Below are positions 44,084-57,581 of a DNA stretch of 64,000 bases, in pieces; the first letter of the stretch is position 1, and the number at the start of each line of letters is the position of its first letter. The notes beneath the pieces were generated by a model. That model was not told the origin of the DNA. It saw nothing but the letters and a program-made list of their open reading frames with translations, and ran no database searches. A program made the translations under genes and the position numbers. Source of the stretch: Runella sp. MFBS21 (GTDB taxonomy: Bacteria; Bacteroidota; Bacteroidia; Cytophagales; Spirosomataceae); contig NZ_JARNTW010000001.1 in NCBI RefSeq assembly GCF_029433105.1, forward strand, positions 806,001-870,000, given 5' to 3'.

Positions 44084-44713
44084 TCAATTTTCATTGGTTC
44101 GAGGGAAAGTCGAACCAAAAATCTTATCCCAAAAATCCGAACTGACTCCATATCCTTTGTCAGGCTCGGCATAGTGATGAAGCATATGGTGCTTCTTTAA
44201 TTTTTTCCAAAAACCTGCTTTGAAATTAGCGTGGTGAAGTGCATAATGACTCATGTCATAAAACAAATACCCGCTGATAAAACCCGCAAAAAAAGCTGCA
44301 ACAGGAAACGCGCTCATCAAAAGCGCAAATAAAAAATAAAAGGCCGTGGCCAACGGAATACTTACCGACGGAGGCATCACGAGACGTTTGGCATCGTTAG
44401 GAAAATCATGATGGACCCCGTGGAAAATAAAATGGAGGCGCTCCATGATTTTGCCTTTGGGCGTAAAATGAAACACAAATCGGTGCAGGAAATATTCGGT
44501 AAAAGTCCACACAAACAAGCCTCCGCCATAATAGCCAAGAAATGATAAAACGGGCAATTGGCCTACAAAAAGGGCTTTCCAAGAAAAATAAAAAATGACG
44601 GGAATAAAAATAAATAAGGGGACACTATAGTGGACTTTGGAAAGGGCTTCCAACAGGTCACTTTTAAACATCCTTGAGGACTCCGTCGAGTTCGAAACAT
44701 ATTTTTTAGGCAT
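44084..44713 (-). CDS. Fatty acid hydroxylase / sterol desaturase superfamily membrane enzyme
   Basis: 209 residues with four or five hydrophobic segments and the full set of di-iron histidine boxes: H-R-F-V-F-H, H-G-V-H-H, H-Y-A-L-H-H and H-H-M-L-H-H. The layout with an HFIFHGVHHDFPND phrase is that of fatty acid 2-hydroxylases of the Scs7/FA2H type that hydroxylate the acyl chain of ceramides; bacterial carotenoid hydroxylases share the histidine boxes but differ around them. It is the last gene of the lipid island, 168 bases behind the DUF4833 gene, on the same strand. Role in hydroxylating ceramide is inferred from family and context. Confidence 0.82.
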   Translation of the reverse strand: MPKKYVSNSTESSRMFKSDLLEALSKVHYSVPLFIFIPVIFYFSWKALFVGQLPVLSFLGYYGGGLFVWTFTEYFLHRFVFHFTPKGKIMERLHFIFHGVHHDFPNDAKRLVMPPSVSIPLATAFYFLFALLMSAFPVAAFFAGFISGYLFYDMSHYALHHANFKAGFWKKLKKHHMLHHYAEPDKGYGVSSDFWDKIFGSTFPRTNEN

Positions 44714-44881
44714 GTTAGGACGGTTTTTAAAGGTGGAAAAATTGTTTTTCGAATAGCTGTAGTACGTTACTGATAATAAAATTTTGCAAATAGCAGTGCT
44801 AGGAATTGGTGAATTCCGATTGATAATGAGCGTTTTTTGTTTTTTTAGTGAGGTCGCTTATCTCTAATACATAAGCAATAG

Positions 44882-45463
44882 TTAGGAGGGTTTGAAACGG
44901 TGAACGATTGTTTTTCCAGTAGCTGTTTCGGTGCCTTTTAATTCGATATAAAGCACATTGGGTGACCAAAATGTACCGCCATCGATGCGGATAAAAACCC
45001 GCTGCAAGACACATTCTTTTTGGGCAATGTCAGTATAAACTCGGTATTGATTTTTGGTATCTTTTTTCAACAACAAAGGTAATTTTGAATAGGCCACTGA
45101 GCGTAATTCATATTGGCCATTACCAATTTTTTTTGCATTGATACCATACGCAAACTTCCTTTGAATATAGTTGAGGTCTTTGTGGGCGCCACCTTCAGGA
45201 TAGCGTATCCAAAAGGCATGAATGGGGCTACCTTCTTCTAGCTGACCTTTTTCGTTGATATTGAGTTCATAACAGATGGTGTTGGTATTAGGGTCACGCT
45301 GAATATAAAAAAGTAACTTAGGCAATCCACTTGGTATTGGAAAGGTCTCAGGGTCGGGAAGAGGCCCATTGAAAGAGGGTGCTGTGTGATTGGGTGCAAT
45401 GGCACTTATAAACGATAGACCTACTATAAGGACAATCAACAAACGGTTTACTACTGACTTCAT
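44882..45463 (-). CDS. DUF4833-like exported protein
   Basis: 193 residues with a signal peptide (LLIVLIVGLSFISAIAP). The rest is a compact beta-rich domain: LPKLLFYIQRDPNTNTICYELNIN, PIHAFWIRYPEGG, FAYGINAKKIGNGQYEL, and a cysteine-containing C-terminal part. I match it to DUF4833 from the F-x-I-x-R-x-x-N-x-N-T-x-x-Y-E-L pattern. No catalytic residues can be named. It is the last gene of the tight operon with the nucleotidyltransferase and CDP-alcohol transferase (nine bases after the PfkB gene). An exported protein at the end of a lipid operon could act on lipids in the periplasm; this is a guess. Confidence 0.72.
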   Translation of the reverse strand: MKSVVNRLLIVLIVGLSFISAIAPNHTAPSFNGPLPDPETFPIPSGLPKLLFYIQRDPNTNTICYELNINEKGQLEEGSPIHAFWIRYPEGGAHKDLNYIQRKFAYGINAKKIGNGQYELRSVAYSKLPLLLKKDTKNQYRVYTDIAQKECVLQRVFIRIDGGTFWSPNVLYIELKGTETATGKTIVHRFKPS

Positions 45464-45472
45464 ACGCTTACT

Positions 45473-46402
45473 TCATGACTGTGAAATGGAAGAAGCTAAC
45501 TCCTCCCAAGGAAAAATTTTCTCGTGTAAAGTTGAGTTTAAGATATTCTCAACTTGCTGCAAATCACCTGAAAAAGGCCCAGAAGATTGGATTTTGATAG
45601 TGGCCATTGCTGCCCCAAATTCCCCTGCTTCTTGTGGATTTCCACCTTTTATTTTTTTCAACAAATAACCCGCCATATAAGTGTCACCACAGCCCGTGGC
45701 ATCTACTACCTGTTTGGGTTTGAAGGCGGGAATTTCATAAAAATTGCCTTCGGTATAAATCACCGAGCCCTTGCTGCCAAGCGTGATAATGACTTCTTTC
45801 ACGCCCATTTCGGCCAAATAAAGTGCACCTGCCCTGATTTCTTTTTGACCCGTAATCACCTCCATTTCGTACTCATTGGCTTTCAAAATACTTACATGGG
45901 CCAATGCTTCATCTTTGTCAACCCAGTCGGTATAATGTACTTTTTGATTTTTGACAAAACGTAAAAAGCCTTGAATATCAAGCGAAACCATTCCTTTTTG
46001 GGCCAGCGCTTTCAGCAGTTCCACCGATATATCGTCGGAGAGAAGGGGGCCAAGATGGTAAATTTGAGCATCAATATTTGGCAACAAAGCTACTTCTTTG
46101 GTAAAAGGGTCGGCTTTGTACAAGACATTTTGCTCGCGGTGGTCTTGGTTTTGACTATAAATATTTTCAAAAAATACGGTATGCTCGCTTGGTAAAGTTG
46201 TAATTTCAATTCCTTCTTTTTGCAATTGCTCCACAATCGGAAGCTCTGCCGCTGCTACTGCCGTAATGAGCCGATAATCAACGTCAAATTTTTGGATGGC
46301 TTTCGAAAAATAAAACGAAGTACCACCCGGCATAAAATTGACGGATTGCGTGGTTACTACTTTATCAAGTGTAATATGCCCAATTGTACAAATATCATAC
46401 AT
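45473..46402 (-). CDS. PfkB family carbohydrate kinase
   Basis: 309 residues. PfkB features: the N-terminal G-G-T motif (FMPGGTSFYFSKAI), ATP and substrate region LDIQGFLR, LKANEYEMEVITG, then the second signature VVDATGCGDTYMAGYLL with the catalytic aspartate. It lacks the extra lid strands of ribokinase by length. The family phosphorylates sugars, nucleosides or polyols such as inositol. Encoded 29 bases after the HAD gene in the operon with a nucleotidyltransferase and CDP-alcohol transferase, it could supply the phosphorylated alcohol that is activated or transferred to the lipid. Substrate unknown. Confidence 0.88.
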   Translation of the reverse strand: MYDICTIGHITLDKVVTTQSVNFMPGGTSFYFSKAIQKFDVDYRLITAVAAAELPIVEQLQKEGIEITTLPSEHTVFFENIYSQNQDHREQNVLYKADPFTKEVALLPNIDAQIYHLGPLLSDDISVELLKALAQKGMVSLDIQGFLRFVKNQKVHYTDWVDKDEALAHVSILKANEYEMEVITGQKEIRAGALYLAEMGVKEVIITLGSKGSVIYTEGNFYEIPAFKPKQVVDATGCGDTYMAGYLLKKIKGGNPQEAGEFGAAMATIKIQSSGPFSGDLQQVENILNSTLHEKIFPWEELASSISQS

Positions 46403-56783: not shown

Positions 56784-56840
56784 ATTATGAAACTGGTGTC
56801 AGAAATATTCTACTAATTGCTTTTAACTTTACTCAATCAT

Positions 56841-56904
56841 TTCCATTAAAAATGGAAGGATTGGAGATAAGGCAAATATCAACTTACAACTACAAACAAT
56901 GTTT
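56841..56904. promoter_or_regulatory. Palindromes in the spt promoter region
   Basis: TTCCATT-AAA-AATGGAA (56841-56857) is a perfect palindrome 58 bases before the SPT start, and AAACA-A-TGTTT (56894-56904) resembles the centre of the palindrome ahead of the TetR gene. Both lie in the 141 bases between the TetR stop and the SPT start. They are candidate operator sites; DNA here is AT-rich. Confidence 0.4.
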
Positions 56905-56924
56905 CAGAAGAAAATGTTAAACAA

Positions 56925-57581
56925 CTACATCACTTCTTCCGAAATAAATAAATACTCCGTAATCATATCAATGATTATATTCTTATGATTTTCGGCAAAC
57001 TGATTAAACTCCTCCTCCGAGCAATTGTACATTTTCATGGTAAGGTTTTTACCAACAAACACAAATTGAAGACTTCCCATAATTAAAGGCATGATGCTTT
57101 CGGTCGGAATCTTGCGCATAGTACCTTTACTCACTTCTTCTTCGATATGAGCCGTCAAATGCCCGTGTAATAGTTCTTTTAATTTATTTAGCTCCGGCAA
57201 CAGCCGACTCCCGTCGCGTTGAATCTCAGTCATCAAAAACAAAACCAAGGCAGGTTCTGTCTTCATTACTTGAAAATCAGCTTTAATCAGTTCAATTAGC
57301 TTCTCTCTAAGCGAAATAGGCTTCTCAAAAATCTGAAGCGTATTGTTACAATAAAGCGAAAATAAATCCTTAAAAATTTCGACAAAAAGCTTCTCCTTAC
57401 TCCTAAAGTAGTAGTTAGTAAGGGCAATATTCATGTTGGCTGCCTCCGCAATGTCCCGCGCTGTTGTACCAGCGTACCCTTTCTTCAAAAAAACAGATTT
57501 CGCTGCTTCTTTGATTTTTTCTTCACTAGATTGAGTTATACACGCCACGTTTTCTTCTCTGTTTTCATTAACCTGCGCCAA
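56925..57581 (-). CDS. TetR/AcrR family transcriptional regulator
   Basis: 218 residues. The N-terminal helix-turn-helix is clear: IKEAAKSVFLKKGYAGTTARDIAEAANMNIALTNYYFRSKEKLF-type sequence, the standard TetR_N pattern. The C-terminal domain is helical and without a recognisable ligand pocket. It is on the same strand as the SPT operon, 141 bases before it, and a palindrome (57627-57646) stands 46 bases upstream of its own start. Autoregulation and control of the sphingolipid genes are likely. The ligand might be a fatty acyl-CoA, as for many TetR lipid regulators, but this is inference. Confidence 0.9.
   Translation of the reverse strand: MAQVNENREENVACITQSSEEKIKEAAKSVFLKKGYAGTTARDIAEAANMNIALTNYYFRSKEKLFVEIFKDLFSLYCNNTLQIFEKPISLREKLIELIKADFQVMKTEPALVLFLMTEIQRDGSRLLPELNKLKELLHGHLTAHIEEEVSKGTMRKIPTESIMPLIMGSLQFVFVGKNLTMKMYNCSEEEFNQFAENHKNIIIDMITEYLFISEEVM

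Follow-up and report, generated by a model that had tools for sequence, protein, structure and literature searches.

Do the ceramide genes of Runella sp. MFBS21 and the head-group genes beside them form one lipid pathway, and if so, which lipid is its product? The question is raised by a run of genes at positions 44084..57581 of the window, that is, the whole analyzed stretch of 64,000 nucleotides. All gene coordinates below are on the minus strand. The sequence-only reading counted fourteen genes here, but its own list sums to 13, as do the open reading frames of at least 80 aa, among which there is no fourteenth; every gene named in it was found inside the interval, on the minus strand and in the order given. 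The family labels are mostly backed by Pfam or NCBIfam (TetR_N, NF047600, Epimerase, DUF5686, NTP_transferase, CDP-OH_P_transf, LPG_synthase_TM, HAD, PfkB, DUF4833, and FA_hydroxylase). Comparison with relatives moved the starts of the HAD, CDP-alcohol phosphotransferase (CDPOH), and GNAT genes downstream, and after this correction no overlap between neighbors in the SPT-to-DUF4833 run exceeds 26 bp and no gap exceeds 94 bp. The TetR-family regulator (56925..57581; Pfam TetR_N), not strictly in the block, lies 141 bp upstream of SPT. The fatty acid hydroxylase (FAH) lies 168 bp past DUF4833, and just past it there is a terminator-like hairpin on the minus strand (44042..44065, listed on both strands; 10-pair stem with 5 G-C pairs). 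Both the regulator and the hydroxylase are looser neighbors of the conserved SPT-to-DUF4833 block.

This arrangement is not a matter of chance, because it is kept in relatives. Among 121 genomes of the family, 27 carry SPT of the window type, and these include all 21 genomes with CDPOH of the window type. In each of these 21, SPT, GNAT, SDR, DUF5686, the nucleotidyltransferase (NTP), the ATP-grasp enzyme (ATPg), CDPOH, the flippase-like gene, HAD, PfkB, and DUF4833 are kept together as a block of unchanged order, the counts not being independent evidence since linked genes are inherited together. The same operon, with an added inositol-phosphate synthase (MIPS) gene, is found in Parapedobacter from another order. 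Thus, the conserved linkage on which the joining of two modules had been made to hang was indeed observed. Two SPT-positive relatives, G590 and G618, lack the head-group core; behind their ceramide genes stand two glycosyltransferase genes and one flippase-like gene, a pattern suggestive of an exchange of head-group modules next to fixed ceramide genes. It agrees with a single lipid pathway whose heads can be exchanged, and together with the linkage in the family and in Parapedobacter it argues that the two modules probably do serve a single pathway, as first proposed. Outside the family, SPT is present in the fetched stretch of only one of 63 named loci, and the link to ceramide is therefore lineage-limited.

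In the ceramide part, the SPT gene product (55578..56783) matches NF047600 at 735 bits (cut-off 640), which identifies a serine palmitoyltransferase (Spt) of ceramide synthesis, catalyzing its first step. The GNAT-like acyltransferase (54460..55581, start corrected from 55608) is a candidate ceramide synthase with a weak PF00583 match (E 1.5e-5), located between SPT and SDR in 21/21 CDPOH-positive family genomes. The extended SDR (53468..54463; Pfam Epimerase, E 2e-31), also conserved in position, is a candidate 3-ketosphinganine/ceramide reductase. At the level of family matches, both fit a bacterial ceramide synthase and reductase. The hydroxylase (44084..44713) has an FA_hydroxylase domain (PF04116), keeps the histidines of Scs7 in the alignment with it, and has Scs7 as its best PDB match (E 5.5e-35), all features of a fatty acid 2-hydroxylase of the Scs7/FA2H sphingolipid type. 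It had been counted as a member of the island. It does stand at the end of the block, but adjoins it in just 8 of the 21 genomes, and is better regarded as an accessory gene, while the TetR gene in one family locus (L047, genome G127) is separated from SPT by three other genes.

In the head-group part, the gene order opens with a protein with CarboxypepD_reg and DUF5686 domains (50837..53401; PF13715 and PF18939), probably located in the outer membrane; a carboxypeptidase-regulatory-like protein is found near both published inositol-lipid clusters (PMC9246714). NTP (50005..50742; NTP_transferase) is a predicted CTP:inositol-phosphate cytidylyltransferase. The best PDB match of its profile (22 members) is the inositol-1-phosphate cytidylyltransferase of T. 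maritima (4jd0, E 7e-11), with a small lead over sugar nucleotidyltransferases (E 3.4e-10). R13, K23, and D106 are invariant in the 22 members and align with R, K, and D of the 4jd0 active site, the numbering of the Asp in PMC12275187 not being reconciled with this alignment. ATPg (49145..50008) is a candidate kinase or ligase with no Pfam call above the cut-off. Its AF2 model (pLDDT 91) has the ATP-grasp fold of LysX, RimK, Ddl, and ITPK, and the best PDB match of its profile (23 members) is an ITPK (E 3.6e-6). Its best NCBIfam matches, all below cut-off, are the MptN and RimK ligases, and single members of the 23 match Pfam Ins134_P3_kin (E 0.0048) and RimK (E 0.0049). NTP and ATPg are fused in one locus (L089). 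The LPG_synthase_TM/HpnL-like membrane protein (47163..48209; PF03706, E 1.5e-29, HpnL below cut-off) is a predicted lipid flippase. The HAD phosphatase (46432..47145, start corrected from 47262; PF00702 and PF13419) is fused to CDPOH in another locus (L121), which places it at the lipid step. The DUF4833 protein (44882..45463; PF16117, E 2.8e-51), with an apparent signal peptide as judged by eye, follows PfkB in 21/21 CDPOH-positive family genomes.

CDPOH itself (48184..49140, start corrected from 49212), the predicted head-group transferase, belongs to the CDP-alcohol phosphotransferases by its PF01066 score (43.5 bits, cut-off 22). In a Foldseek search its first 22 matches are all enzymes of this family, yet the best E-value is only 2e-3, and the fold is closest to AF2299 and PIP synthases. 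Not all eight signature residues are kept: the fourth aspartate (D4) is replaced by Gly140 in the window, and by Gly in 18/18 aligned members and in 105 of 107 motif matches (duplicates included), the remaining two being canonical enzymes. This signature had been described as absolutely conserved, and a D-to-N change at this residue almost abolished the activity of a PIP synthase (PMC4634129). The PHI pattern in its printed form, GX3DX3D, would miss the CDPOH members examined.

The source of the head group is suggested by PfkB (45473..46402), whose best PDB match is TM0415 (E 5e-32), a myo-inositol kinase of the ribokinase family (TM0415/MI3K). Residues D13, N80, Q144, and R148 correspond to the acceptor contacts D11, N78, Q141, and R145 of TM0415 and are kept in the window protein and 36 orthologs (duplicate genomes included); PfkB is a predicted myo-inositol kinase. 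The D.QG..R motif is absent from nine of the ten other PfkB proteins of the genome, the tenth not having been recovered. The basic residues of the pyrophosphate type in TM0415 (K171, R229, and R232) are not all kept. The lysine is retained, whereas R229 is replaced by Ala and R232 by Cys, and ATP is accordingly the predicted donor. A search for MIPS detected no such gene in the genome of the window, whose completeness is rated at 100%, or in any of the 37 family loci (duplicates included). The operon is apparently fed by scavenged inositol. In 5 of the 21 CDPOH-positive family genomes MIPS is present elsewhere, and thus salvage is not the sole source of inositol in all of them.

With a probability of about 70%, the operon makes ceramide phosphoinositol, an inositol phosphosphingolipid, for the cell envelope. 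Spt, the SDR, and the GNAT protein would build ceramide, whose acyl chain may be hydroxylated by the Scs7-like enzyme where it is present. Scavenged myo-inositol would be phosphorylated by PfkB and activated with CTP by NTP, and CDPOH would move phosphoinositol onto the ceramide hydroxyl. The HAD enzyme would remove surplus phosphate, the LPG_synthase_TM protein would flip the lipid, and the DUF5686 and DUF4833 proteins may work in the periplasm or outer membrane. ATPg is the least certain step; it probably acts with NTP on the soluble head group. We infer all substrates, the reaction order, and ceramide rather than diacylglycerol as the acceptor; the starting point is the observed gene content, conserved linkage, family identities, and diagnostic residues. 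The reading draws on the family linkage, MIPS within the fetched stretch of 46 of the 63 other loci, the NTP match to 4jd0, the PfkB contacts, the G590 and G618 modules, and the two gene fusions. PI-dihydroceramide is reported in B. vulgatus and P. veroralis, both carrying the alternative inositol lipid cluster compared below (PMC9246714). Counted against the reading are the 62 loci without SPT in the fetched stretch, Dysgonomonas genomes without CDPOH of the window type, the missing D4, and the near-equal score of sugar nucleotidyltransferases. A bolder variant, which we consider unlikely, is a new bacterial path through a doubly phosphorylated head: an ITPK-like ATPg kinase would add a second phosphate to inositol phosphate, NTP would make CDP-inositol-phosphate, the transferase devoid of its base aspartate would use the extra phosphate in catalysis, and HAD would strip it after transfer to ceramide.

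The same CDP logic could put another polyol or phospho-acid on ceramide, such as a modified inositol, a sugar, or glycerate. The 4JD0-like enzyme CpgD of Caulobacter works with phosphoglycerate in making the head of a sphingolipid (PMC12275187), hence an enzyme of this kind need not use inositol. The closeness of sugar nucleotidyltransferases to the NTP profile, the lack of detected MIPS in the window genome, the high Km of TM0415, which leaves other acceptors possible (PMC5931981), and aminotransferase and Gfo/Idh genes in some relatives of the core point the same way. MIPS near the core at 46 loci and the kept inositol contacts of PfkB speak for inositol, and a different head seems improbable. 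Somewhat less probable still, the core may make phosphatidylinositol on diacylglycerol, with the ceramide genes merely co-transcribed and ceramide receiving another head. Synthesis of PI from CDP-inositol and diacylglycerol as a first step is what PMC9246714 proposes, and SPT is not in the fetched stretch at 62 loci; against this stand the linkage in all 21 genomes and its recurrence in Parapedobacter, the other head-group genes behind the ceramide genes in G590 and G618, and the family searches, which recognized no separate ceramide head-group transferase among the 13 genes. Very improbably, CDPOH alone makes lipid, and NTP, ATPg, and HAD work toward something else, such as a capsule containing inositol (inositol is found in capsule, PMC9246714) or a soluble inositol phosphate. 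Three Dysgonomonas genomes (G638-G640), two of them with NTP and ATPg and the third with NTP, ATPg, HAD, and MIPS, have no CDPOH of the window type, and loci L171 and L173 have a second type of CDPOH but no core. On the other side, all five core genes occur together in 21/21 family genomes, and the CDPOH-HAD fusion ties the phosphatase to the lipid step.

The head-group pathway, initially called unknown, is not wholly so: for Bacteroides vulgatus and Prevotella, Heaver et al. (2022, PMC9246714) described a putative "alternative inositol lipid cluster" of matching composition. Shared with it are grouped genes for an NTP transferase, a CDP-alcohol transferase, and HAD, the LPG-synthase-like and CarboxypepD_reg genes nearby, and the CDP-inositol logic. 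This likeness to the cluster of BVU_RS13095/13105/13115 is one of gene composition. The window operon differs in the addition of PfkB and DUF4833, the junction with ceramide genes, the predicted acceptor, ceramide, and an ATP-grasp gene in the core, a term that occurs 0 times in the main text of PMC9246714. Because MIPS, expected in the vicinity of that cluster, was not found in the window genome or the 37 family loci, the operon appears to be a variant rather than a member. In the Caulobacter phosphosphingolipid cluster CC_1152-CC_1168, ceramide genes also adjoin head-group genes, including a 4JD0-like cytidylyltransferase, but the phosphoglycerate head is made via ceramide kinase and the other head-group genes differ (PMC11324152, PMC12275187). 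B. thetaiotaomicron BT_1522-1526 yields the end-product class predicted here, inositol phosphoceramide, by PIP synthase, PIP phosphatase, and an AUR1-like synthase (PMC9246714). The AUR1-like PAP2 and PgpA families have no match among the 13 genes, which sets the operon apart from BT_1522-1526. In the di-myo-inositol phosphate route of hyperthermophiles, acceptor and product are soluble. That route (IPCT/DIPPS; 4jd0 and 4mnd) likewise activates inositol phosphate with CTP and then employs a CDP-alcohol transferase; unlike it, the window CDPOH lacks D4.

In summary, the operon turns a published, unconfirmed pathway guess into one testable unit, with the prediction that the acceptor is ceramide, not diacylglycerol. 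CDPOH brings to light a group of transferases at variance with the signature described as absolutely conserved, and ATPg is a candidate bacterial inositol-phosphate kinase. Some bacteria are predicted to obtain the inositol of their lipids by kinase salvage rather than through MIPS, and the apparent exchange of head-group genes behind ceramide genes would allow the heads of sphingolipids to be predicted from genomes.

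Thirteen genes, all on the minus strand, occupy positions 44084–57581 of the window; the sequence-only reading placed the strand correctly and counted fourteen, while its own list also holds thirteen. Nearly all of its gene labels are backed by family scans. The order is TetR, SPT (serine palmitoyltransferase), GNAT and SDR (the other, candidate ceramide genes), DUF5686, NTP (predicted cytidylyltransferase), ATPg (ATP-grasp protein), CDPOH (CDP-alcohol transferase), LPGTM (LPG_synthase_TM flippase-like protein), HAD, PfkB, DUF4833, and FAH (fatty acid hydroxylase); NTP through HAD constitute the head-group core. 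Comparison with relatives moved the starts of GNAT, CDPOH, and HAD downstream, to about 55581, 49140, and 47145, respectively. After these corrections, the genes from SPT to DUF4833 form a tight block with overlaps of at most 26 bp and intergenic spacing no greater than 94 bp. TetR and FAH are more loosely placed, 141 bp upstream and 168 bp downstream of the block, respectively, and a 10-pair hairpin lies 3' of FAH. DUF4833 (44882–45463) follows PfkB in all 21 Spirosomataceae genomes with CDPOH and in Parapedobacter. Genes for an ECF sigma factor, FecR, and a TonB-dependent receptor (57848–63319) diverge from the operon; the sigma factor adjoins the operon in several Runella loci too, and all three genes are kept in locus L046.

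The proposed linkage of ceramide synthesis to a head-group pathway is supported by gene order in relatives. CDPOH occurs in 21/121 Spirosomataceae genomes, and in all 21 neighborhoods (the window, L008–L011 with L046–L049, and L130–L145) the block from SPT to DUF4833 is complete and has one order; FAH comes next in eight. The nearest named relative found for the 7.88-Mb host genome is Runella zeae, which shares 97% identity in ATPg and 94–100% across the 13 operon genes. SPT of the window type (E 1e-90 or better) was found in 27 of the 121 genomes, including all 21 with CDPOH; given the linkage of the genes, their shared presence does not count as independent proof. Neither gene was found in G636, a genome of the same genus. 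CDPOH (E 1e-10 or better) is present in 5 of 148 sampled Cytophagales genomes, all five from Spirosomataceae, and class- and phylum-wide samples yielded CDPOH in 9 and ATPg in 15 of 395 genomes.

Six of the 121 Spirosomataceae genomes have SPT without CDPOH. In G590 and G618, SPT-GNAT-SDR (followed by DUF5686 in G590 only) precede two glycosyltransferase genes, the first of the group-1/GT4 type, with an LPG_synthase_TM gene between them. This pattern matches the expectation that the head group is determined by whatever genes come after the ceramide set, though two clear cases are a small number. G546 (78% complete) has SPT-GNAT-SDR-DUF5686-LPGTM without the core, and neither other ceramide genes nor the core were found beside SPT in G568, G591, and G611. 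In the CDPOH tree of 33 chosen rows, Spirosomataceae and Sphingobacteriales form one strongly supported set (100/99), the split between them being weak (64/100). Given also how rarely CDPOH occurs in the rest of Cytophagales, the tree is in keeping with gene transfer between these groups, in either direction.

The nature of the head group is indicated by neighboring genes. Among 63 named loci with ATPg outside Spirosomataceae, taken from the best 80 of 566 relatives, the fetched stretch, in some cases ending early at a contig end, contains CDPOH in 59, NTP in 55, HAD in 49, and inositol-phosphate synthase (MIPS) in 46 loci; MIPS is present in 30 of the 37 full-length stretches, and Pfam backed its identity in 4/4 scanned examples. 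Against a general link of the core to ceramide, SPT adjoins it in only one of these 63 loci. Sphingobacterium loci have the order MIPS-NTP-ATPg-CDPOH-LPGTM-HAD (the L075 stretch is incomplete). The Parapedobacter luteus operon, SPT-GNAT-SDR-MIPS-DUF5686-NTP-ATPg-CDPOH-LPGTM-HAD-PfkB-DUF4833-FAH, is an intermediate holding both inositol sources. No MIPS was detected in the window genome; it occurs in 14/121 Spirosomataceae genomes, among them 5 of the 21 with CDPOH, where it is always on a different contig from the operon. What the operon has instead is PfkB, best matched in the PDB by TM0415 (E 5e-32), a myo-inositol kinase (PMC5931981). The inositol contacts of TM0415 are kept as D13, N80, Q144, and R148 in the window protein and 36 orthologs (duplicate genomes counted); in the window protein, R229 and R232 of the PPi signature are replaced by Ala and Cys. 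The NXXE motif is present, and the D.QG..R motif is absent from nine of the ten other PfkB proteins of the genome (the tenth sequence was not recovered). The 22-member NTP profile best matches 4jd0 (E 7e-11), an inositol-1-phosphate cytidylyltransferase (PMC12275187), by a small margin over UTP-glucose-1-phosphate uridylyltransferase (3.4e-10), followed by phosphocholine cytidylyltransferase (5e-8) and, nearly full length, the inositol enzymes 2xme (2.6e-6) and 4mnd (8e-6). Since the 4jd0-like CpgD uses phosphoglycerate for a Caulobacter sphingolipid (PMC12275187), homology alone does not fix the NTP substrate; it is MIPS and PfkB that point to inositol.

CDPOH passes Pfam, and its model is nearest to AF2299 and PIP synthases (best TM 0.51, best E 2e-3), with no fold match at E 0.001. 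The signature D1xxD2GxxAR...GxxxD3xxxD4 has been called absolutely conserved, with D4 as the likely base and a D-to-N change there nearly abolishing activity (PMC4634129). In CDPOH, by contrast, D4 is Gly140 in 18/18 aligned members, and Gly occupies this position in 105 of 107 motif matches (duplicates counted), the two exceptions being canonical enzymes in Dysgonomonas; this Gly is followed by D in 89 matches, by N in 15, and by A in one. The predicted structure has eight helices of at least 18 residues beyond residue 40, and extra helices of eukaryotic enzymes were suggested to serve lipid acceptors (PMC4634129), which would make a lipid a plausible acceptor. A second, more distant CDPOH type, with no core alongside, is seen at L171:9667-10563 and L173:9671-10561.

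The confident ATPg model (pLDDT 91) falls among the LysX/RimK, Ddl, and ITPK folds. Its 23-member profile best matches inositol 1,3,4-trisphosphate 5/6-kinase 4 (7pup, 3.6e-6), followed by the ligase PsnB (3e-5), another 5/6-kinase of the same substrate (1z2n, 5e-4), and inositol-tetrakisphosphate 1-kinase (2q7d, 4e-3). Against a kinase, the best NCBIfam matches are the ligases MptN (8e-8) and RimK (1e-6), both below the cut-off. D246, D259, and N261 are invariant in 23/23 members; in the alignments, the D259/N261 site is D-x-N in the matched kinases and E-x-N in PsnB, and ligases mostly have E-x-N. Two fusions from metagenome-assembled genomes, NTP-ATPg (539 aa, L089:9227-10846) and CDPOH-HAD (555 aa, L121:3230-4897), connect ATPg to the activation step and HAD to the transfer step. 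If a kinase acted before the transfer and a phosphatase after it, the intermediate would be phosphorylated, which is a bold reading. A CDP-alcohol transferase-HAD fusion is likewise described in PMC9246714.

Counter-evidence comes from Dysgonomonas: in two genomes NTP-ATPg adjoin a canonical CDP-alcohol transferase without CDPOH of the window type, and a third has NTP, ATPg, HAD, and MIPS, also without it. In the Dysgonomonas loci L080:9295-13759 and L091:9304-16835, NTP-ATPg share a cluster with a canonical CDP-alcohol transferase gene and with PgpA and PAP2 genes (Pfam on L080 only, giving PgpA and PAP2_3); these clusters are seemingly a hybrid of both published inositol-lipid pathways. In L034:7062-14594, L037, and L039–L043 (other Bacteroidota families), genes for MlaE, an ABC ATPase, MlaD, a class III aminotransferase, and a Gfo/Idh/MocA oxidoreductase are interspersed among those of the core (Pfam on L034, ORF starts elsewhere), possibly specifying an amino-inositol head and a dedicated lipid transporter. 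The cores of L034, L039, L040, and L042 contain a tandem ATP-grasp gene pair.

Heaver et al. (PMC9246714) described a putative alternative inositol lipid cluster in which NTP, CDP-alcohol transferase, and HAD genes lie close to MIPS, and reported PI-dihydroceramide in two species having it. The ceramide operon is real and conserved, and it carries an apparent plug-in module for an inositol head group; the operon is a variant of an already described, still putative kind of cluster, and the variant itself is new.
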